Of a stretch of 47,797 nt of DNA, positions 27,395 to 39,580 are shown one piece after another; position 1 is the first letter of the stretch, and every line of letters begins with the position of its first letter. The stretch lies in assembly GCA_021648525.1 (NCBI GenBank), contig JAKISP010000030.1, forward strand, positions 1 to 47,797, read 5' to 3'. Under the pieces are notes generated by a model. That model was not told the DNA's origin. It did not search any database and was given only the letters and a program-made list of their open reading frames with translations. This DNA is from Gammaproteobacteria bacterium (GTDB lineage: Bacteria; Pseudomonadota; Gammaproteobacteria; SZUA-140). Made by a program: the position numbers and the translations under genes.

Positions 27395-28969
27395 ATGACG
27401 ATTAAACGCGCACTCATCAGTGTCTCGGATAAAACCAATATTCTAGAATTTGTCCAGGGCCTACAGTCGATGAAGGTAGAGATACTGTCTACTGGTGGCA
27501 CTGCCAAATTACTAGCGGACAATGGCATCGACGTCATTGAGGTCTCTGATCACACCGGTTTTCCTGAAATGATGGATGGCCGTCTCAAGACGCTTCACCC
27601 AAAAATTCACGGTGGTATTCTTGGTCGTCGCGAGATCGATGGCGATGCGATGACGGAACACAACATCGCACCGATTGATCTGGTTGTGGTTAACCTCTAT
27701 CCCTTTGAACAGACCGTTGCCAGGCCAGAGTGCGATCTACCACTGGCGATTGAAAACATCGATATTGGCGGGCCGACCATGGTGCGCGCCGCAGCTAAAA
27801 ATCACAAAGATGTCGCCATCGTTGTTGATGTTAACAACTACGCAGAAGTACTGGAAGAGATGGCTGAAAACAACAACACACTCAGCCATGCAAGCCGTTT
27901 TTCACTCGCCGTTAAGGCCTTCGAACATACTGCCGCCTACGACAGCACCATTGCTAACTACCTGGGTAGTATCACCGATGGCGGTATTTCAAACGAAAAT
28001 CGTGCGACGTTTCCGCACAGCTTCAATGCGCAATTCATCAAGTCGCAAGATATGCGCTACGGTGAAAATCCGCATCAAAAAGCGGCGTTTTATATTGAAG
28101 CACGCGCACAGGAGGCATGCATCGCCACTGCCGTCCAACTTCAGGGTAAAGCCCTGTCGTTTAACAACATCGCCGATACCGATGCCGCGCTGGAATGCGT
28201 CAAACAGTTCGAAAGAGCCGCCTGTGTTATCGTGAAACATGCTAATCCCTGTGGCGTAGCGGTCGCCGATTCGCTGATCAATGCCTATGACAACGCCTAT
28301 AAAACGGATCCGACCTCTGCCTTTGGCGGCATCATCGCCTTTAATCGCCCACTCGACACTGAAACAGCTCGCGCCATTATCGACCGTCAGTTTGTTGAGG
28401 TTATTATCGCACCCACTGTCACGGAGAGCGCACTGGCGATCATCGCTGAAAAAGCAAACGTCCGTCTGCTCACCTGCGGTGAATGGCCGTTAGAGCGAAT
28501 CGTATCACTCGACTACCGTCGCGTGAATGGTGGCATGTTGCTACAGACATCCGATTCAGCCATGGTGAGCGCTAGCGACCTCAAAGTCGTCACCGAAATC
28601 GCGCCATCTGATAAAGTGATGGAAGACCTGTTATTTAGCTGGAAGGTAGCGAAATTTGTAAAATCTAACGCCATTGTCTATGGCAAAGATCTCACCACAA
28701 TAGGTGTTGGGGCAGGGCAAATGAGCCGCATCTATAGCGCCCGTATCGCAGCGATCAAAGCAGCCGACGCTAACCTGCTAGTGAAAGGATCCGTCATGGC
28801 AAGCGATGCCTTCTTCCCGTTCCGTGATGGTATTGATGCCGCAGCCGAAGTAGGCATCACCGCAGTGATTCAGCCAGGTGGTTCAATGCGAGACCAGGAA
28901 GTGATTGATGCTGCGAACCAACATGGCATGGCAATGGTCTTTACCGGCATGCGCCATTTCCGCCACTAA
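27395..28969 (+). CDS. purH: AICAR transformylase/IMP cyclohydrolase
   Basis: 524 residues, full length. The N-terminal IMP cyclohydrolase domain has [23 protein letters not shown] and [23 protein letters not shown]. The C-terminal transformylase domain has [14 protein letters not shown] with the catalytic Lys-His, [14 protein letters not shown] and the end [27 protein letters not shown]. It carries out the last two steps of IMP synthesis. It follows fis by 90 bases. In most relatives purD comes directly after; here a 9.3-kb opposite-strand module lies between. Confidence 0.97.
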
Positions 28970-28996: not shown

Positions 28997-31900
28997 TTAA
29001 TGCATCGTCGTCCGCATACTACGCCAACGCAATAGTAATCCGTATAGTGCAAACAACCACACCGCAAAACCACTCGCCCCGACACCGCTGCGCCCAACGC
29101 TACTAAAGGTAAAGGCGTAAACCTCAAAACCAGAAACTTCTTCGTTCCCCAGCTCATCAATAGAGAGAAAGCGTATTACCGACGCAGATGAAATCGGAAT
29201 CGGCCCAGTGTACACCTGCGTCGCTCCGCCGGTTCCCACCTCGGATGGTGTTGGCACCCCGCCACCAATCGTATAATAGATGCTACTCTCTCGACAGCCA
29301 GAACCAGTCGCCGCGGTCGTCACACCTGGGGGCAGCTCACTAAAACCAGATGGCGTATCACCATAATCATAACATTCCAGTACCACATGGATTTCAGAAG
29401 TAAAGACATTACCCTCTGTATTCGGTGTCGCTGTTGTTTCTGGCGCTCCGATATCCACATAGTAGATTTCACTCTTCACACCGCTACCAGATGAATCAGC
29501 CTCACTATTGCCCGCCCTGTCGATTGAGAAAAACTTCAATTCAATAAAGCCATACAAGCGTGTTCTCGGAATAAACTCAGCCGGGATCTGCTCCAGCGTA
29601 ATATTTTTTTTTCTCACTGCATCAAGCACGATACGATTATCCTCCCCACCCAGCACCCGCTGAATCAGCGGCACCTGAGAGGCGGTAATATAGGTGGGCG
29701 GTGGTGTATCCGATGCTGGAATATCTGCCAATGAATAGGCCGTCCTTGAAATTGAACCGAGGGTAATTTGATTCAGATCCAGATCCTCCAGGTCGATATC
29801 TGCAAACGTCTCGGCCCCGTCAGGGATATTAGCTGATGCCACCACATTCGCCAGAATATTCCCTGGAATCGAATCAATCCTAACTGCCGCTAAATCCACA
29901 TATTCAAGCACACGCTGCAACTCAATACTATTACGCGCAACGGCCACAGGGGGAATATCAGCTAATGTAAATTTAGTTAAATCAATTCGAAATCTGGCTT
30001 CCTCAACCGAGGAGACAATATCAGCCAATGTCATCTCTTCAAAAATATCCTGCTCAGCACCCACCAGATCATCCAGGGTGTAAGAATCAAGCGGCAATAG
30101 CTGTTTGGGTGTTAGTGGTAGTATATATAGCTGCGCATCTTTACTGGGGGTACCATCGCCATCATTGGGTGCTGATCCATCCGTGGTGTAGTAGGTATTA
30201 CCACAGTTAGCACCGCCACTATCTTCACACACCAGGGCAATTTCGATCCCCGTATCTGAAACTTCCATATAGCCATCACCATGTAAAATATCCTTCAAGA
30301 TAATATTTGGCTGCGCTGTTGTCGTTGGGAAATCACCATCAATGCCATAGTTCGCTGAATTAATTTCACTGACCGTGCCATGTGCATCTTTTGCAAAAAA
30401 CTTCACCTCAGCATCTGCTGTAATCACATCTATTCTAGGTGGTGGTGGTGGCTCAGGTGGCGCGGGTGGAGGCTGGACATAAATTGCTGACAAAGCAGAC
30501 AATTGTTTCGGCTCGGTACCATCTAACGTGTAAAAAATCGTGCATGGCCCTGCGGTGCTATTATGGGTGCATGAAAGAACCACATCCAATGAGGGTGTAT
30601 TGTAAAAACTACCCGCAACATGATTGGTCACGGTAGGGCGCGCAGTATCAAAAACAGCGAGATTATTGCGAGCAGTAGCAGGGGCGTTGCCAACAGTATT
30701 AAAGTCACCCCCCACAATCATCAGGGAGTCATCGGTATTTCGTTTCATCGCATAAACCACCGTACCGGTAGAGATATCAGGATTCCACTCAGTTAAATCA
30801 TTGGCTGGTGTCTCTGCAAGGTTAAGCCGTGCTACATGATTTCTTGGAGTATTACTCACCGTTACATTCGAAAAATTGCCACCAAGCCATAACATATCAT
30901 CATCAGTAGAGAACGCCAGCGAATAGATACCTGTACCATTCGTAACATTCGGGTCATCGGTGGTCACACGCCACTTATTACTAATCGGATCAACCTCAAG
31001 CGCTGCAACGCGATTTCTAGGATAAGTGGTAGCATTTTCCTCTGTGATCGAAGTAAAATCGCCACCAAAATAGAGCGTTTTATCGTCACTGCTCAATGCG
31101 AGGCTACGCACGATGCCATTCACATTTGCCACTGCCCATAAGTCATCAGGGGGAATGTCAGCCAATGACATGCCACTCCCTGTTTTTAGTGCCGCAATGT
31201 TCACATTTGAATGGCCGCCAGCCCGGATATAGTCACCACCAACAAAGACAAGCTCGCCATCACTACTCACCACCAACGCGTGCACTTCACCCGCTACACC
31301 ATCAATGCTGCCTATCGCGCTACTGCCATTCAGCACGCCCAGCCCATCAATGCCTTCCACAGTCAGATCCAATGCCGCAATATTATTACGGCTCTGCCCT
31401 GCAACCTGTGAAAACAAGCCGCCCGCATAGAGCGTTGTATCGTCAGGTGAAAATGCCAATGCCCTCACTTTAGCTCCCGCACCACCCGTTATCGATGGGT
31501 TCCAGACTGAAACATTGTTAGAAGAGGCACTTAGTAAAGCCATATTATTTCTTGGCGTTGATGCACTAACAACAACTGAAAATTGACCGCCAATATAGAC
31601 CCCCTGACCATTACTCGTTGAGGCAATGCTATACACCGGCCCATTAACAAACACATCCCATTCAGTCGCCATACCTCGCGAGGTGCTAGTGCTTAAATCA
31701 AGCTCTGCAATATTACTCCGAATACGGCCACCGCCCGACTCAAACGTTCCCGCAACAAATATTTGATCATCGGCCACCGCAATTGTATTAATTAACCCAC
31801 CACTGGCATCACTCGACCAGGAGACTGCGCCTGTCCCCGAGTTAAGCACCGCCATTCTAGAGACCGCTCGGTTAGATGAATCGGTATCAAGCTCGCCATT

Positions 31901-33076
31901 CGAAGCAACGTAGATCCGACCACCTGCGACTATTATTTGGCTCACGCTAATACTTGCTTCCTCAGCACCGCTAAAAGGAAGTTGATTCCCACTCCAGGCA
32001 ACAATAGTAACTAAAGAAAGATCAGACACATCGCTGACTGCAAAACCAGGCCAACTGGCCCCATTGATTGTAGAAAAATCACCGCCGATATAGAGCAAGT
32101 TACCTAATAATGCCAGCGTACGAACAATACCACCGTCAGCATCTGGGTTCCAGCCGAGGTCATTATTTGCATTGCCTGTGGTATCAAATGCCGCTAAATA
32201 ATTGCGTGATATCGCTCCACCATTCACTTCCGTAAAATCACCGCCAGCATAAAGCCTGTTATTTACCGCATCAAGCAGCAGTGTTCGAACAATGTCATTA
32301 ACATCAGGATTCCAGTCAGTGGCTACATCTTCACTACCCGCAATCAATAGATTAAAGTGCGCAATGTTATTTCTTGTTGGCTGTGTCGCCTGACTACCTA
32401 TTCTTGCAAAGCTCCCGCCCACATAAAGGCTCTCACTAGCGTTACCCAATACCATCGCATGCACTGGGCCATTGGCATTTGGATTCCAGCTTGCCAACGT
32501 ATTATTAGATATATCGAATGCCGCTAAATAATTACGCATTATTACACCATTCACCTGTGTGAAATCACCACCAACATAAAGCATGCCATTTACCGTATCG
32601 AGCAGGAGTGTTCGAACAACCCCATTAACGTCTGGATTCCAGGCCAGCACCTTGCCATCAGCATCTATCTCAGCAAGATTATTACGATTTTGGGAGCCAG
32701 AACTATCAATCACCTGGGTAAAATTACCCCCGATATACCAGCCGCCATTATCTGATGCAATCGCAACGTGAACACCAATATCAGCACCAGCACCACCAGT
32801 AAACGTAAGATCAAAGAGAGTATGATTTGGTGCGGTTGAACTAACCGCAACAGCATTTCCAGATTCAGGGCCAACATAGGTAAAATCACCGCCAATAAAA
32901 GCGCTATTGGCGCCGCCGCCCCTCACCATCTCCACAGTATAAACTGGGCCGTTGGGCTGCCATACCTCATCCAGCGGAACGGCTGCAGCCTTAAGCGCTA
33001 CGTTGAACACCAGTGCCAGACACATTGGCATCAACAGCGATAAGTTTTTCATGCGAAAGTTCGATGACAACATCAT
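28997..33076 (-). CDS. Giant secreted DUF5122 beta-propeller protein with C-terminal anchor (second of tandem pair)
   Basis: 1359 residues from the ATG at 33076, which overlaps the previous gene's stop as ATGA and has GGGG upstream. A signal peptide (MKNLSLLMPMCLALVFNVALKAAA) follows a short basic lead. Thirteen repeats of about 45-60 residues share LYVGGDFTxVxG...RNNxA...WNP, the DUF5122/delta-60 beta-propeller pattern. Three chitobiase C-terminal-like units follow (IFYTLDGTEPK, YYTTDGSAPN, IYYTIGGG). Between the second and third is a stretch with repeated LADIP-like motifs. The end (VGASGFAVWLFALYGLLLRWR) is hydrophobic plus basic, like a surface-sorting tail. Probably a cell-surface protein; ligand unknown. 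Confidence 0.8.
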   Translation of the reverse strand: MMLSSNFRMKNLSLLMPMCLALVFNVALKAAAVPLDEVWQPNGPVYTVEMVRGGGANSAFIGGDFTYVGPESGNAVAVSSTAPNHTLFDLTFTGGAGADIGVHVAIASDNGGWYIGGNFTQVIDSSGSQNRNNLAEIDADGKVLAWNPDVNGVVRTLLLDTVNGMLYVGGDFTQVNGVIMRNYLAAFDISNNTLASWNPNANGPVHAMVLGNASESLYVGGSFARIGSQATQPTRNNIAHFNLLIAGSEDVATDWNPDVNDIVRTLLLDAVNNRLYAGGDFTEVNGGAISRNYLAAFDTTGNANNDLGWNPDADGGIVRTLALLGNLLYIGGDFSTINGASWPGFAVSDVSDLSLVTIVAWSGNQLPFSGAEEASISVSQIIVAGGRIYVASNGELDTDSSNRAVSRMAVLNSGTGAVSWSSDASGGLINTIAVADDQIFVAGTFESGGGRIRSNIAELDLSTSTSRGMATEWDVFVNGPVYSIASTSNGQGVYIGGQFSVVVSASTPRNNMALLSASSNNVSVWNPSITGGAGAKVRALAFSPDDTTLYAGGLFSQVAGQSRNNIAALDLTVEGIDGLGVLNGSSAIGSIDGVAGEVHALVVSSDGELVFVGGDYIRAGGHSNVNIAALKTGSGMSLADIPPDDLWAVANVNGIVRSLALSSDDKTLYFGGDFTSITEENATTYPRNRVAALEVDPISNKWRVTTDDPNVTNGTGIYSLAFSTDDDMLWLGGNFSNVTVSNTPRNHVARLNLAETPANDLTEWNPDISTGTVVYAMKRNTDDSLMIVGGDFNTVGNAPATARNNLAVFDTARPTVTNHVAGSFYNTPSLDVVLSCTHNSTAGPCTIFYTLDGTEPKQLSALSAIYVQPPPAPPEPPPPPRIDVITADAEVKFFAKDAHGTVSEINSANYGIDGDFPTTTAQPNIILKDILHGDGYMEVSDTGIEIALVCEDSGGANCGNTYYTTDGSAPNDGDGTPSKDAQLYILPLTPKQLLPLDSYTLDDLVGAEQDIFEEMTLADIVSSVEEARFRIDLTKFTLADIPPVAVARNSIELQRVLEYVDLAAVRIDSIPGNILANVVASANIPDGAETFADIDLEDLDLNQITLGSISRTAYSLADIPASDTPPPTYITASQVPLIQRVLGGEDNRIVLDAVRKKNITLEQIPAEFIPRTRLYGFIELKFFSIDRAGNSEADSSGSGVKSEIYYVDIGAPETTATPNTEGNVFTSEIHVVLECYDYGDTPSGFSELPPGVTTAATGSGCRESSIYYTIGGGVPTPSEVGTGGATQVYTGPIPISSASVIRFLSIDELGNEEVSGFEVYAFTFSSVGRSGVGASGFAVWLFALYGLLLRWRSMRTTMH

Positions 33077-36000
33077 ACCAGGCCCCTGTCTCGGCACATT
33101 TGATCCGCCATACGATGGCGACGGAATCGCCAGCACAGCCACGGCAGCAGCAACAAACCAGCACTTAATGGCCCAATAGCGCCAGCATTTTCACTATAGT
33201 TTTTTACATAACTGGCACGCTGTATTATCGACTCATTGCCAATATGGTCTACCGCAATGAATTTCACCACCGTGCTATCTGACAGGCGAATCGGCCCAGT
33301 GTAGAGCGTCGATGCTGTGGTGGGTGTTGAATCATCCAGTGTATAATAAACTCCACGACACCCGGTTATAAAACGATCATTGTCATCAACACTCGCCTCC
33401 CCCGTCACTGGAGGGTCATCCGGCTGTGATGGATTACTCGCATCAGGAATATCGCCAATGGATGCCGCCGTGACTTCAGTGTCATCACTGCATAACAGTG
33501 TCAGCTCAAACGCTTCAGTATAAAATATTTGTGTTGGCGGGTCTGCCACCACGATAGGTGCTGCCAGATCAAGCCAATACTGCTCTACATTTATATCCAT
33601 CACCTCCCCGCCATTAGATTCATCATTACGCGCCTGATCAAATGCAAAATACTTCAATGTTGTATTTTGACTAAGGGTAATCGGCCCGGTGTAAACCGTT
33701 GATGTATCCGTCGGCTTAGTACCATCAACCGTATAATAGATCTCCGCGCAACCCGCATTACCCGCATCCACACAGTCCAATACAATATCCAGCTCATCAT
33801 TACTACTCAGTATTTTTCCATCTGGCAGCGGGCCGGAAGGTAAGGCTGTTGTTGTGGGAGGCAGTTCATCAATCACATAAAGCATCGTCTGTATTTCAGA
33901 TTGATTACCAGCATCATCTTTCACAATCAGCTGAAGTGTTGTATTAACCGAAATATTAATTTCCTGGTCTGGTGCTAAACCATCAGGATCAGGCGTTACA
34001 TTACTATTAATGGTGTAATAAACACTCCCGCTACAATCCCTTGGCACATCAATGCAACTCACTGTTAATGTGCTGGTCTCTAATGCATCTTTATATGCAC
34101 CTGCGGGTGGGTTTGTAACCACCCGAGGAAAACCAACATCCACCGTCGTCAAACCTTCACGTAAGTAGGTCGTCATCGGCGTAATGGTAGCCGTTACCTG
34201 TTTAAAGTCACCACCAATAATCATTCTGTCATCAGTACGACTGATTCCCAGATGCCGCACGGTTGCATCCACCCGTAAATCCCACCACGAAAGCGGTGCA
34301 CCATCAACAAAATCGAGTGCGGCCATCCGCTCACGTGAAATATTATTAATTTCAGTAAAATCGCCACCCACAAAAATAACATCATCCGTTAATGTAATCG
34401 CCTCAACCAGGCCGTTAGCTCGTGGGTTCCAACTGAGCAGATTAAAGGCATTGGCGGAGGTATCAAGGGCAGCAAGATAGTCTCGACTCTGTGTAAGGCC
34501 ACCGTCATTAATAAAGCGGAAGTCCCCGCCAATATAGAGCGTAGAACCCGCATTCACCATTCCATACACAGGACCATCGACAGCAGGCGCCCATGCTAAC
34601 GCATTATTTATGTCCTGAGTAATATTTAGTGCAGCAAGATGGGAGCGAAATATATTCTGGCTATTCGTATTAACATTAGCAAAATCACCGCCAATAAATA
34701 AAGTATCACCATTTAAGGCAATCGTATAAACAACGCCGCCCACTGATGGATTCCAACCAGTATCGTCACCACTCGCTACATCAATTGCACCCACGTTATT
34801 ACGTACTGTACTGCCTATCGTTTCAAACTCACCTGCCACGTAAAGTACGCGTTCATTCGGGGAGAGTTCAATGTCATGCACGGCTGTAGTCGATGAGCTA
34901 CCATTTATATCAGGATTCCAGCTCCTGGCACTACCGGTTGTCGTCTTTAATGCCGCAACATGGTTACGTGACTGGCCGCCCACAGAAGTAAAGTCGCCAC
35001 CCACATAAAGCGTTTCACCGTCGGCACTTAACACCATATCTCTTACGGCTGCATCTGATCCAGTATTAAAACTGGAACTCAGAATACCCGTACTCGAATC
35101 AATTGCAGCCAGACGCTCTCGAGTAACACCGCCAACCGACGAAAAAGCCCCGCCAATAAAAATACTGGTTCCAGTGCCTGGTGATAATGCATACACCGTA
35201 TTACCAACTGAAGGGTTCCAGATGGTGGAAACATCCTCATTATTATTGACAGCACTCAGATTAAATGCCGCTGCTCGATTACGTAACAACCGGCCAATGA
35301 ATGTAAAATCGCCACCGACATAAAGGTTATTATCATCTAGCAGCAACGTTCTCACAACGCCATTGGCATCTGGATTCCAACCAGGGTCAGCCGCGCCCTG
35401 AGCGGTATTAATGAACGCTATATTGTTTCTTTCCTGGCCACCAATATTTGCAAAGTCACCGCCCACATAAACACCTGCCACGCTAATAGCTATCGTTCGC
35501 ACAATACCATCAGCATTGGGGATCCAGTTCACATCTGCCGTACCTGCGGGAGTATTGATCAATGCAATATTGTTTCTTGTTGGCTCAGCGCCGATTGACG
35601 TAAAATCACCGCCCACATAAACATTGGTTCCGCTAACCGCTATCGTCCGCACGACATCATTGGCATTGGGATTCCAGGCAGTGGCAACATCTTCATTATT
35701 TGTATCTGCAAGATCAAAATGTGCGGCATAATTTCTTGTTGGCTGAACGCTCTGACTACCAATGAGTGTAAAATCACCACCCACATAAACATCTGAGCCG
35801 CTAACGGCTATCGTCCGTACGACATCATTGGCATTGGGATCCCAGTTCACATTTGCCGCACCTGTAGTAGTATTGACCAACGCAATACGGCTTCTCACCT
35901 GACCGCCAATGTTTGAAAAATCACCACCCACATACAGGTTTGAGCCATTAAGGCCCATCGCCCGAACAGGCGCATCCGCATCTGGATTCCAGGTAGAATT

Positions 36001-37941
36001 TACAACTCCAGCATACGAAATATATGCAATGTTATTACGAGCAACAGCACCAACACGTGAAAAGCTACCGCCGATATACCAACCATCAGCATCATCGCTA
36101 ATTACAGTATAGATATCCCCGTCAATCTCCGGCCAAGCTGACTGTACACCTCCAGTAGCGTTCACCACCACACCACTGCCTGTACTCGGCCCAATATAGG
36201 TAAAGTCACCACCAATATAAAGCTGCGACTCATCCTCCACTGAGGTGAATTTACCACCTGCAATCAGAACATCTCCTTCACGCTCAATCGCAAGCGCCAT
36301 AACGGTGCCATTTACTGGTTTAGGATTCCATCCCGTTCTCAAGGTACCTTCCACTACCAGGACACCGGCCAAATTAGCAAAAGCGGCATCACCCTCGACC
36401 TCTGTAAATTCACCACCCACATAAACCGTATCATTCGTTTGTGCCAGCGAAGTTACCACACCGCTACTGAAATCCACATCCCATGAGGTCGCGTTGTTAA
36501 CCGCCAAAATGATATCAAGCACCGCAAAATTATCCCGGTCCTGCCCGCCAATTCGCTCAAAATCGCCGCCAACATACAATAACTCGGTCTCGTTTCCCCT
36601 CGTTTCGTCCACACTAAATTCCTGAAGCAACATTACATTGATTTCTGTCGTTTCCTTCGCACCAGTCTCCCCTGGGTTCCATGGTGTTAACACATTAATA
36701 TTCGTTGTCACATCAAGCTCAGCAATGCTCTGTCTGGCAACATCATTTGCAGCATTAGTTGGAACATTAATCGCAATATTCTCAAAATCACCGCCAATAA
36801 ATAGCCGCCCACGATCTTTCGCTAGCACCATTGCCTTGACAGGGCCATCAACGTTAGGGTTCCACTCACGAACCACCATTCCATTGCTTGTTTGATTTAA
36901 ATCAAGGGAGACGATGCTCTGCCGAACATCACCTGCTTCGGGATAGGTTTGTTCGAGTGGAGTATCTAAGGCTGTCCCGGAAAGATCATATTTTACGTCG
37001 ATCGTTTGATCCACATTGCCATCGCCATTCACATCAATATCGATATCACCATCACCATCCACATCAATGTCGTATATTCCATCAGCAAAAATTTCCTTTG
37101 TTATTTCGAAGATGCCATCATCATCCATATCAATGCCCACCACCCCATTGATATCGACATCTAGCTGACCATCCCCATTACTATCACGCGGTCCAGTACC
37201 TTGCACCGTGGTAAAGGCGCCGCCAATATAGACTAGGCGATCTTCTAATTCATCATCATCAGCAATCGTCGCTATTGCATACACAAAGCCATCCAGACTT
37301 AGCGTTAGCTCAAGTGCGGTTACCGGTTTCGAGACCGATCCAGTGTGAAGCTCTGCAAAATACCAACGTGTCTCACCATGTATTTCAGTAAACTCTCCAC
37401 CTACCAGCAGGCGTAAACCCGCTTCGCGTGTATGAAATCTCAGGGCGTGAACAACACCATCAGGATTTGGTCGCCAGTCACTACTAACCGTTAAATCCGA
37501 TTGAATATAGGCAAGGTTTCTTAACTCAATCCCACCCACGTGGGTAAAGTCACCGCCAATCACCCAACCGCCCAAACCATCTCCAACAATGGCATTGATC
37601 TGTCCAGCCACACCTGACTTCGTAACTTTTGGGAATCGTGGATCAACCAGCGCCGTATCCAGATCAATGGCAGCACCATGCCCCATATTTTTACCCGTAC
37701 TTGAACCAAATGATGCGCTCGCTAACACCGGGCCATTGGTCACCAGGTTTGCAGCTGCAGGGAATGCCGCATAAGCTGCAGGGAATACCACATCAGCTGC
37801 TAAAGCATCAGAATTGGCTTCAATATCCGGCGCGGCAAAAGACTCGGCAGAAAGAACACAAAAGACAACCGCAGCACAAAGCCATCGAGCCATGACATTG
37901 TGTGAGTGAAAGGTGCTTTGCTGGTGCTGCATGGCCGACAT
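33073..37941 (-). CDS. Giant secreted DUF5122 beta-propeller protein with Asp-rich insertion (first of tandem pair)
   Basis: 1622 residues from the ATG at 37941 (MSAMQHQQ, with AGGA eight bases upstream); the frame is open to 38040. Signal segment: MARWLCAAVVFCVLSAESFAAP. I count 21 repeats of the type VYVGGDFxxIGG...RNNIA...WNPNANDVVRTIAV, several almost identical in the middle. An Asp-rich insert (36975-37195) has DGDGDIDIDVNGDGNVD, like calcium-binding loops. Near the end are three chitobiase C-terminal-like units (VYYTINSN, IYYTVDGTKPTDTSTVYTGP, VYYTLDDSTPTTASTLYTGP), then a hydrophobic tail and RFRRHRM. It is a paralogue of the next gene and translationally coupled to it. Confidence 0.8.
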   Translation of the reverse strand: MSAMQHQQSTFHSHNVMARWLCAAVVFCVLSAESFAAPDIEANSDALAADVVFPAAYAAFPAAANLVTNGPVLASASFGSSTGKNMGHGAAIDLDTALVDPRFPKVTKSGVAGQINAIVGDGLGGWVIGGDFTHVGGIELRNLAYIQSDLTVSSDWRPNPDGVVHALRFHTREAGLRLLVGGEFTEIHGETRWYFAELHTGSVSKPVTALELTLSLDGFVYAIATIADDDELEDRLVYIGGAFTTVQGTGPRDSNGDGQLDVDINGVVGIDMDDDGIFEITKEIFADGIYDIDVDGDGDIDIDVNGDGNVDQTIDVKYDLSGTALDTPLEQTYPEAGDVRQSIVSLDLNQTSNGMVVREWNPNVDGPVKAMVLAKDRGRLFIGGDFENIAINVPTNAANDVARQSIAELDVTTNINVLTPWNPGETGAKETTEINVMLLQEFSVDETRGNETELLYVGGDFERIGGQDRDNFAVLDIILAVNNATSWDVDFSSGVVTSLAQTNDTVYVGGEFTEVEGDAAFANLAGVLVVEGTLRTGWNPKPVNGTVMALAIEREGDVLIAGGKFTSVEDESQLYIGGDFTYIGPSTGSGVVVNATGGVQSAWPEIDGDIYTVISDDADGWYIGGSFSRVGAVARNNIAYISYAGVVNSTWNPDADAPVRAMGLNGSNLYVGGDFSNIGGQVRSRIALVNTTTGAANVNWDPNANDVVRTIAVSGSDVYVGGDFTLIGSQSVQPTRNYAAHFDLADTNNEDVATAWNPNANDVVRTIAVSGTNVYVGGDFTSIGAEPTRNNIALINTPAGTADVNWIPNADGIVRTIAISVAGVYVGGDFANIGGQERNNIAFINTAQGAADPGWNPDANGVVRTLLLDDNNLYVGGDFTFIGRLLRNRAAAFNLSAVNNNEDVSTIWNPSVGNTVYALSPGTGTSIFIGGAFSSVGGVTRERLAAIDSSTGILSSSFNTGSDAAVRDMVLSADGETLYVGGDFTSVGGQSRNHVAALKTTTGSARSWNPDINGSSSTTAVHDIELSPNERVLYVAGEFETIGSTVRNNVGAIDVASGDDTGWNPSVGGVVYTIALNGDTLFIGGDFANVNTNSQNIFRSHLAALNITQDINNALAWAPAVDGPVYGMVNAGSTLYIGGDFRFINDGGLTQSRDYLAALDTSANAFNLLSWNPRANGLVEAITLTDDVIFVGGDFTEINNISRERMAALDFVDGAPLSWWDLRVDATVRHLGISRTDDRMIIGGDFKQVTATITPMTTYLREGLTTVDVGFPRVVTNPPAGAYKDALETSTLTVSCIDVPRDCSGSVYYTINSNVTPDPDGLAPDQEINISVNTTLQLIVKDDAGNQSEIQTMLYVIDELPPTTTALPSGPLPDGKILSSNDELDIVLDCVDAGNAGCAEIYYTVDGTKPTDTSTVYTGPITLSQNTTLKYFAFDQARNDESNGGEVMDINVEQYWLDLAAPIVVADPPTQIFYTEAFELTLLCSDDTEVTAASIGDIPDASNPSQPDDPPVTGEASVDDNDRFITGCRGVYYTLDDSTPTTASTLYTGPIRLSDSTVVKFIAVDHIGNESIIQRASYVKNYSENAGAIGPLSAGLLLLPWLCWRFRRHRMADQMCRDRGLV

Positions 37942-38296: not shown

Positions 38297-39580
38297 ATGA
38301 AGGTACTCATTATTGGCGGCGGTGGTCGCGAACACGCTCTGGCCTGGAAGGCAGCGCAATCGGCACGTGTTAAAACTGTTTATGTTGCGCCCGGCAATGC
38401 GGGCACCGCAGGCGAAGCGAAACTTGAAAACATCGCTATCGGTGCTGAGGATATTCCGGCGCTGCTCACCTTTGCCAAAGAAAATAGCGTCGGCCTGACC
38501 ATCGTTGGGCCTGAAGCACCACTAGTTGCCGGTGTGGTTAACCGCTTTGAAGAGGCCGGTCTGCGCTGCTTTGGCCCAACCGAAGGCGCTGCCCAGCTGG
38601 AAGGCTCCAAGGCGTTCACCAAAGATTTTCTGGCGCGCCACAATATTCCGACCGGTAGCTACCAGAATTTTACCGAGATCGACCCCGCCATCGCTTATCT
38701 ACGCGAACAGGGCACACCGATCGTGGTCAAGGCCGATGGCCTGGCGGCTGGCAAAGGGGTGATCGTGGCGATGACTCTCGTTGACGCCGAGGCAGCTGTT
38801 AAAGATATGCTCGCCGGTAACGCCTTTGGCGAAGCGGGCCACCGCGTGGTGATCGAAGAGTTCCTGGAAGGCGAAGAGGCGAGCTTTATCTGCATGGTCG
38901 ATGGCAAAAATATCCTGCCAATGGCCACCAGCCAGGATCATAAACGGGTCGGTGAAGGCGATACCGGCCCTAACACTGGCGGTATGGGGGCATACTCCCC
39001 CGCGCCCGTCGTTACCGATGAGATCCACGCCCGCATCATGAAAGAGGTGATTGAACCCACTGTTGCAGGCATGGCGAGCGAAGGTAACCCATATACTGGT
39101 TTCCTCTATGCAGGGCTGATGATCAACGCCGACGGTACGCCAAGAGTAATCGAATACAACTGTCGTTTTGGTGACCCTGAAACCCAACCCATCATGATGC
39201 GCCTCAAATCGGATATCACCGAGTTATGTGATGCCGCACTCGACAAAAAACTGGATCATGTCAGTGTAGAGTGGGATAAACGCGTGGCGCTCGGCGTGGT
39301 GATTGCCGCCGCAGGCTATCCCGGCAGCTACCCAAAGGGTGATGTGATCAGCGGGCTTGATAACGACACCGATAACAGTAAAGTGTTTCATGCGGGCACG
39401 AGGATGGATGGCAATAACGTGGTTACTGCAGGTGGGCGTGTGGTTTGTGTTTCTGCACTCGGCGCAACCGTAAGCGAAGCACAACGAAATGCCTATGCCC
39501 ACGTTAAAAAGGTCAGCTGGAACGGTGCTTTTTATCGCAACGACATCGGCTACCGCGCCGTTGCACGTGAACAAAACTAA
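38297..39580 (+). CDS. purD: Phosphoribosylamine-glycine ligase
   Basis: 427 residues, standard. The N-terminus MKVLIIGGGGREHALAWK is the family's first nucleotide-binding loop. The ATP-grasp part shows PIVVKADGLAAGKGVIVA, FLEGEEASFICMVDG, SQDHKRVGEGDTGPNTGGMGAYSPAP and VIEYNCRFGDPETQP. It makes GAR, the substrate of PurT found at 16791. It normally follows purH in one operon; here it is 9.3 kb away and needs its own promoter. tsaC starts 16 bases later. Confidence 0.97.
   Translation: MKVLIIGGGGREHALAWKAAQSARVKTVYVAPGNAGTAGEAKLENIAIGAEDIPALLTFAKENSVGLTIVGPEAPLVAGVVNRFEEAGLRCFGPTEGAAQLEGSKAFTKDFLARHNIPTGSYQNFTEIDPAIAYLREQGTPIVVKADGLAAGKGVIVAMTLVDAEAAVKDMLAGNAFGEAGHRVVIEEFLEGEEASFICMVDGKNILPMATSQDHKRVGEGDTGPNTGGMGAYSPAPVVTDEIHARIMKEVIEPTVAGMASEGNPYTGFLYAGLMINADGTPRVIEYNCRFGDPETQPIMMRLKSDITELCDAALDKKLDHVSVEWDKRVALGVVIAAAGYPGSYPKGDVISGLDNDTDNSKVFHAGTRMDGNNVVTAGGRVVCVSALGATVSEAQRNAYAHVKKVSWNGAFYRNDIGYRAVAREQN

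Follow-up and report, generated by a model that had tools for sequence, protein, structure and literature searches.

The window, that is, the whole stretch of 47,797 nucleotides that was analysed, is contig 57 of the genome of an uncultivated gammaproteobacterium (3.36 Mb, 99.9% complete), whose closest named relative in a contig scan is the Gammaproteobacteria MAG SZUA-128. Two large genes, here termed A and B, lie between purH and purD and run antisense to both, with a gap of only 27 bases between the purH stop and the B stop. The sequence-only reading had placed two genes with a four-base ATGA overlap in this interval, and its coordinates, strands and overlap were all exact. The features are listed below.

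27395-28969, plus strand: purH
28997-33076, minus strand: gene B, 1359 aa, with a signal peptide, two predicted seven-bladed propellers (13 clear blades and 1 degenerate), CHB_HEX_C_1 domains and a sorting-type tail
29000-29104, minus strand: B tail, with a Gly motif, a Leu-rich hydrophobic segment and a basic end (GRSGVGASGFAVWLFALYGLLLRWRSMR...)
29105-30613, minus strand: CHB_HEX_C_1 Ig-like domains of B, one with a large insert (Pfam)
29507-30094, minus strand: insert of ~195 aa in the Ig-like region of B, with L-A-D-I-P repeats (LADIP/LEQIP/IDSIP)
30614-32959, minus strand: B propellers 1 and 2, aa ~40-821 (unit HMM)
32978-33076, minus strand: predicted Sec signal peptide of B, ..LSLLMPMCLALVFNVALKAAA|VP
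33073-33076, minus strand: ATGA overlap for translational coupling, B ATG at 33076-33074 and A TGA at 33075-33073
33073-37941, minus strand: gene A, 1622 aa, with a signal peptide, three predicted seven-bladed propellers (21 blades), three CHB_HEX_C_1 Ig-like domains and a sorting-type tail
33076-33186, minus strand: A tail, with a Gly motif, a Leu-rich hydrophobic segment and a basic end (AGAIGPLSAGLLLLPWLCWRFRRHR...)
33187-34116, minus strand: three CHB_HEX_C_1 / Fn3_assoc Ig-like domains of A (Pfam)
34117-36246, minus strand: A propellers 2 and 3, 14 blades, aa ~566-1275 (unit HMM, AlphaFold models)
35359-35973, minus strand: A blades 11-14, aa 657-861, a hotspot of recurrent blade homogenisation
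36226-37764, minus strand: A propeller 1, aa ~60-572 (unit HMM, ring tree by position)
36937-37203, minus strand: Asp/Gly-rich insert of A (DxDxDG-type, DSNGDGQLDVDING...DVDGDGDIDIDVNGDGNVD), splitting one blade of propeller 1
37834-37941, minus strand: predicted Sec signal peptide of A, ..ARWLCAAVVFCVLSAESFA|AP
38297-39580, plus strand: purD

Both signal peptides were read from the translations. No RNA element or riboswitch was found above threshold at the locus, and the promoter and terminator scans gave signals not in excess of those in shuffled sequence.

Conservation of the pair and its place

A- and B-like proteins are encoded by all 19 relatives in the family (19/19). In the 18 family loci that were fetched, the genes lie between purH and purD or, at contig breaks, beside whichever of the two is present; G006, where no more than a short piece of A is present, at the end of a contig, stands outside this neighbour check. 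Of 17 pairs from the host and related genomes, 16 retain the overlap, mostly as ATGA or (A/G)TGATG, which supports the proposal of a coupled pair. Overlap-based co-translation suggests that A and B may act together in a fixed ratio. Beyond the family, G041 and G188 of a second family have a one-gene version, likewise flanked by purH and purD. Among 11 other class members, purD lies directly after or near purH in six and slightly further off in G053, the remaining ones carry other genes after purH, and none of the 11 has propellers at purH.

Further arrangements were observed in a third family, f75. In G322, a gene for a propeller, Ig-like domains and a tail is followed by a gene for a subtilase-like protein with a similar Gly/Leu/Arg tail (L082:2339-4981) and then by purH. 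In two f75 genomes, the gene for a protein of ~911-915 aa with a different repeat type ATGA-overlaps a small propeller/Ig/tail gene (L092:7591-11600 and L096:6326-10350), giving the coupled-pair layout with a different passenger and an unrelated-looking first gene; a Gly-rich tail is visible in the first-gene protein of L092, and purH was not found in the region of either pair. In G018, A and B occupy a single frame of 2028 aa (L041:6961-13047). Because the A tail directly abuts the B signal peptide inside it, this frame is probably the result of an indel or of read-through, and it was rejected as proof of an A-B interaction.

Propeller rings and Ig-like domains

Pfam searches placed three families above their curated cut-offs in both A and B: CHB_HEX_C_1 (PF13290; 128.2 and 64.5 bits against 22; E 1e-37 and 8e-18), DUF5122 (PF17164; 66.5 and 38.6 bits against 27; E 2.5e-18 and 1.2e-9) and the Rax2 propeller (PF12768; 64.1 and 55.9 bits against 28.8; E 1.7e-17 and 5.5e-15). 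Fn3_assoc was also above its cut-off in both. The chitobiase C-terminal-like units recognised earlier are thus present in the two proteins, which resemble chitobiase/beta-hexosaminidase in this domain; unlike those enzymes, A and B have no catalytic domain and use CHB_HEX_C_1 as tandem stalk modules. The stalk is also weakly similar to OmpL47-type repeats, the only NCBIfam matches to it, all of them sub-threshold. Neither insert has a Pfam match. Both are kept across the genus, and that of A is calcium-binding-like by sequence; a simple motif search did not find the DxDxDG insert in G014, G016 or G018.

Blades were counted with an HMM trained on the repeat units of the window itself. A yields 22 segments, of which two are halves of the insert-split blade and one is partial, resulting in 21 blades, and B yields 13 blades plus a degenerate one in the gap at 365-427, resulting in 14. 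The earlier counts of 21 and 13 repeats were both right, and with the degenerate fourteenth blade of B they are best read as 3 x 7 and 2 x 7. Blades come in sevens in the relatives as well: with the same HMM, sister-genus B has exactly seven blades in seven genomes (an eighth, G012, gives five), and 14 were counted in the A protein of G016 and in the one-gene versions from G041 and G188. Each of five A orthologues within the genus has 22 segments, and some sister-genus A proteins have an intermediate 18-20, including partial units. The G041 single gene also contains a different repeat type, YCF48-like by eye, at aa ~640-940 within its second ring (L039:8786-12556).

Seven A blades (aa 598-968) were modelled with AlphaFold from an alignment with three homologous rows; the model has a pLDDT of 81.5 and a pTM of 0.86, with three main strands assigned per blade and a short fourth. 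VIA-align of this model against seven-bladed WD40 rings gave Z ~29 and an rmsd of 2.3-2.5 over ~275 aligned residues at 10-19% identity, and the matches include a WD40 domain from a prokaryote and a designed protein with seven blades. The predicted structure of this stretch is therefore a closed seven-bladed ring, in agreement with the propeller fold proposed at first reading. A model of 14 A blades has a low pLDDT of 57.6, yet it also matches seven-bladed rings and was used as support only. The other rings of A and B are assigned as propellers by repeat homology and blade counts. Against solved structures, the A profile gave weak matches, among them the designed propeller 8pjs and a hexosaminidase, and the B sequence gave no match. 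In a whole-ring tree, each ring clusters by position across the genus, with weak deeper branches; the three plus two rings are therefore older than the genus.

C-terminal tails and putative surface display

The hydrophobic-basic tails are present on both proteins and, together with the predicted signal peptides, point away from a cytoplasmic location. Tail features were defined according to PMC3237569 and assigned by inspection in A and B and by common pattern in 34 related proteins. The 36 tails have in common a motif with Gly, a short hydrophobic stretch rich in Leu and a column in which Arg is invariant, with the Gly motif directly before the core in nearly all of them, and a tail of this type is found in every complete relative at the purH/purD locus. 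The core composition, taken from the most hydrophobic 14-mer of each of these mutually related tails, is Leu 39%, Gly 14%, Ala 13%, Val 9%, Phe 5% and Ile 3%. Published values are Leu 34, Gly 13, Ala 10, Phe 8 and Ile 6 for the GlyGly-CTERM core and Leu 17, Val 12, Ile 12 and Ala 10 for ordinary transmembrane helices (PMC3237569). The GlyGly-CTERM model TIGR03501 matched neither full-length A nor full-length B, and only one of the 36 tails (E 0.077). After the 14-residue core, 10 residues follow in B, 23 in A and 6-12 in many sister-genus tails, compared to 0-5 after the hydrophobic segment in the GlyGly-CTERM type (PMC3237569). Because of the missed model and the longer post-core segment, we refer to the tails as GlyGly-CTERM-like; judged by their residues, they look like a divergent form and not GlyGly-CTERM proper. 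The sequence-only reading had missed both this likely sorting role of the tails and how widely the locus is conserved.

The host genome encodes a rhombosortase (173.3 bits against a cut-off of 84) and a GspD secretin (593.6 bits against 351), which served as the marker of a putative type II secretion system. It also has five GlyGly-CTERM matches clearly over the cut-off and a marginal sixth. Three GlyGly-CTERM matches lie on one 20.7-kb host contig (L054, G000:C14; at 7572, 15344 and 18949), two of them in open frames of ~1140 codons with repeated Ig-like domains. The JDVT-CTERM/MrtJ route was rejected, as the MrtJ protease has no match in the genome. Within the family, 19 of 20 genomes have a rhombosortase above the cut-off, the remaining genome being 74% complete; so do G041 and all of the relatives with such tails that were checked in families f23, f37 and f75. 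No rhombosortase above the cut-off was found in G119, G273, G363, G383 and G052, where the propeller proteins have no such tail. Since rhombosortase is family-wide anyway, its co-occurrence with the tails inside the family is not independent evidence, and there are counter-examples, in that rhombosortase is present but the tail is absent from the G305 protein and from the second propeller gene of G012.

In Vibrio cholerae, VesB carries an Ig fold and a GlyGly-CTERM. Rhombosortase cleaves it at the second Gly and a moiety containing glycerophosphoethanolamine is added; the type II system brings VesB to the surface, the Ig fold serving as secretion signal (PMC6219818, PMC13393428). Propellers are unmentioned in the two key rhombosortase papers. 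A and B share the order of VesB (passenger, Ig-like domains, Gly/Leu/Arg tail), and thus propellers as the passenger are the most economical reading. Based on sequence features, we propose that A and B are probably a co-translated, exported and surface-displayed multi-propeller pair with an Ig-like stalk, type II export and rhombosortase-type anchoring. Sec would carry both proteins into the periplasm, and the tail would park each of them in the inner membrane. The host rhombosortase would then cut at the Gly motif and pass the protein on to a lipid-type anchor. The stalk would consist of the Ig-like domains, which would probably double as the type II secretion signal, a role that the Ig fold plays in VesB. 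The propellers would be retained at the cell surface, as rings that bind ligands or partners.

Alternatively, the tails might be plain C-terminal transmembrane anchors, making the propellers periplasmic scaffolds tethered to the inner membrane, comparable to BamB at the outer membrane. BamB is among the fold neighbours listed by Foldseek, and failure to match the GlyGly-CTERM model and long post-helix segments would be expected of such anchors. However, the short, Leu/Gly-rich cores are unlike ordinary transmembrane helices, the preceding Gly motif and the invariant Arg that follows are hard to reconcile with a plain anchor, and the genome encodes a rhombosortase. We regard this alternative as rather unlikely.

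It is less likely still that A and B are adhesion or surface-layer proteins binding carbohydrate via their chitobiase-like units, as had been suggested from the carbohydrate-domain-like appearance of these units. That suggestion does not follow from the domains, because CHB_HEX_C_1/Fn3_assoc is an Ig-like module of a spacer family. The proteins are large, repetitive, exported and probably surface-held, ligand binding is common among propellers, and Fn3/Ig-like modules of chitinases can bind polysaccharide weakly (PMC7426924), all of which would suit such a role. On the other hand, no S-layer-type family matched A or B in the Pfam or NCBIfam searches, and the evidence does not set adhesion apart from any other binding role.

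Blade homogenisation in A and comparison with known systems

The 22 segments of A were compared with those of other species in the genus. Most of them find their best match at their own position (13-20 of 20 comparisons, mostly 20), whereas for units 11-14 this holds in only 5-10 of 20. The mean best within-protein identity of these four units is 74-79%, against about 60% elsewhere. The closest blades occur at the same place of the 14-blade block in three genera (up to 96% in G004, 93% in G016, 82% in G014 and 97% in G018), most of the compared genomes being draft assemblies in which near-identical repeats are prone to misassembly. The pN/pS between close blades is 0.17-0.95, mostly 0.2-0.5. 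By these comparisons, blades 11-14 of A evolve in concert at one fixed place, with purifying selection prevailing overall; they would be repeatedly homogenised by exchange between neighbours while the ring stays at seven. The description of the central repeats as near-identical was overstated, as identity between the best copies is 71-76% in DNA and 60-67% when whole units are compared. Nor did the recent internal duplication read from them hold, since all five genus members compared have the same number of blades and the central blades evolve in concert. Recent repeat expansion in the host genome was likewise rejected on the basis of the 71-76% identity, the constant blade number and a TRF search of the window, which found no blade-length tandem array.

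Blades 11-14 might form a self-renewing recognition face, displayed with B in a fixed ratio, in which exchange between neighbours alters the binding surface between lineages and the ring remains seven-bladed. We consider this speculative and improbable; if true, it would be a cell-surface bacterial counterpart of fungal incompatibility propellers. Diversifying selection for recognition on the central A blades, as in fungal HET NLR propellers, is the least probable of all, for although the same blade positions are homogenised in at least three genera and orthology is lost mainly there, the pN/pS values indicate purifying selection overall.

In the preferred reading, that of a surface-displayed pair, A and B resemble the GlyGly-CTERM/rhombosortase proteins VesA, VesB and VesC in having a signal peptide, a passenger, an Ig-like fold and a tail with a Gly motif, a Leu-rich core and a basic end, and in having a rhombosortase and a type II secretin encoded in the same genome. 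They differ in that the passenger is a set of propellers instead of a protease, the tail falls below TIGR03501 with a longer post-core segment, and two candidate substrates share one overlapping operon. Rax2 is a fungal polarity protein, and we know of no function assigned to DUF5122. The open-access literature treats DUF5122 in structural-modelling work, and nothing on Rax2 propellers in bacteria was found there. With DUF5122/Rax2-type WD40-like propellers, A and B share scores above the Pfam cut-offs and a predicted seven-bladed ring, but they differ in having three and two tandem rings, Ig-like stalks and a sorting tail. Highly repetitive, still-amplifying propellers (PMC9218822, PMC6805158) likewise have near-identical neighbouring blades and a preference for seven; in A, by contrast, only four blades of one ring are homogenised, and repeatedly so, at a constant number of blades among orthologues.

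Taken together, the pair is real and conserved, is probably surface-displayed and is made of known modules; what is new is the way the modules are combined, their location in the genome, the diverged sorting tail and the homogenisation hotspot. The layout of the pair, its conserved place at purH/purD and the homogenising blade patch appear to be undescribed, while the component parts are known. DUF5122/Rax2-type bacterial propellers thereby gain a testable place, the cell surface, reached via a rhombosortase-type route, and the tails suggest that the diversity of GlyGly-CTERM-like signals exceeds what the current model picks up. With its 7, 14 and 21 blades and a single homogenising patch, the locus offers a natural series for the growth and change of propellers.
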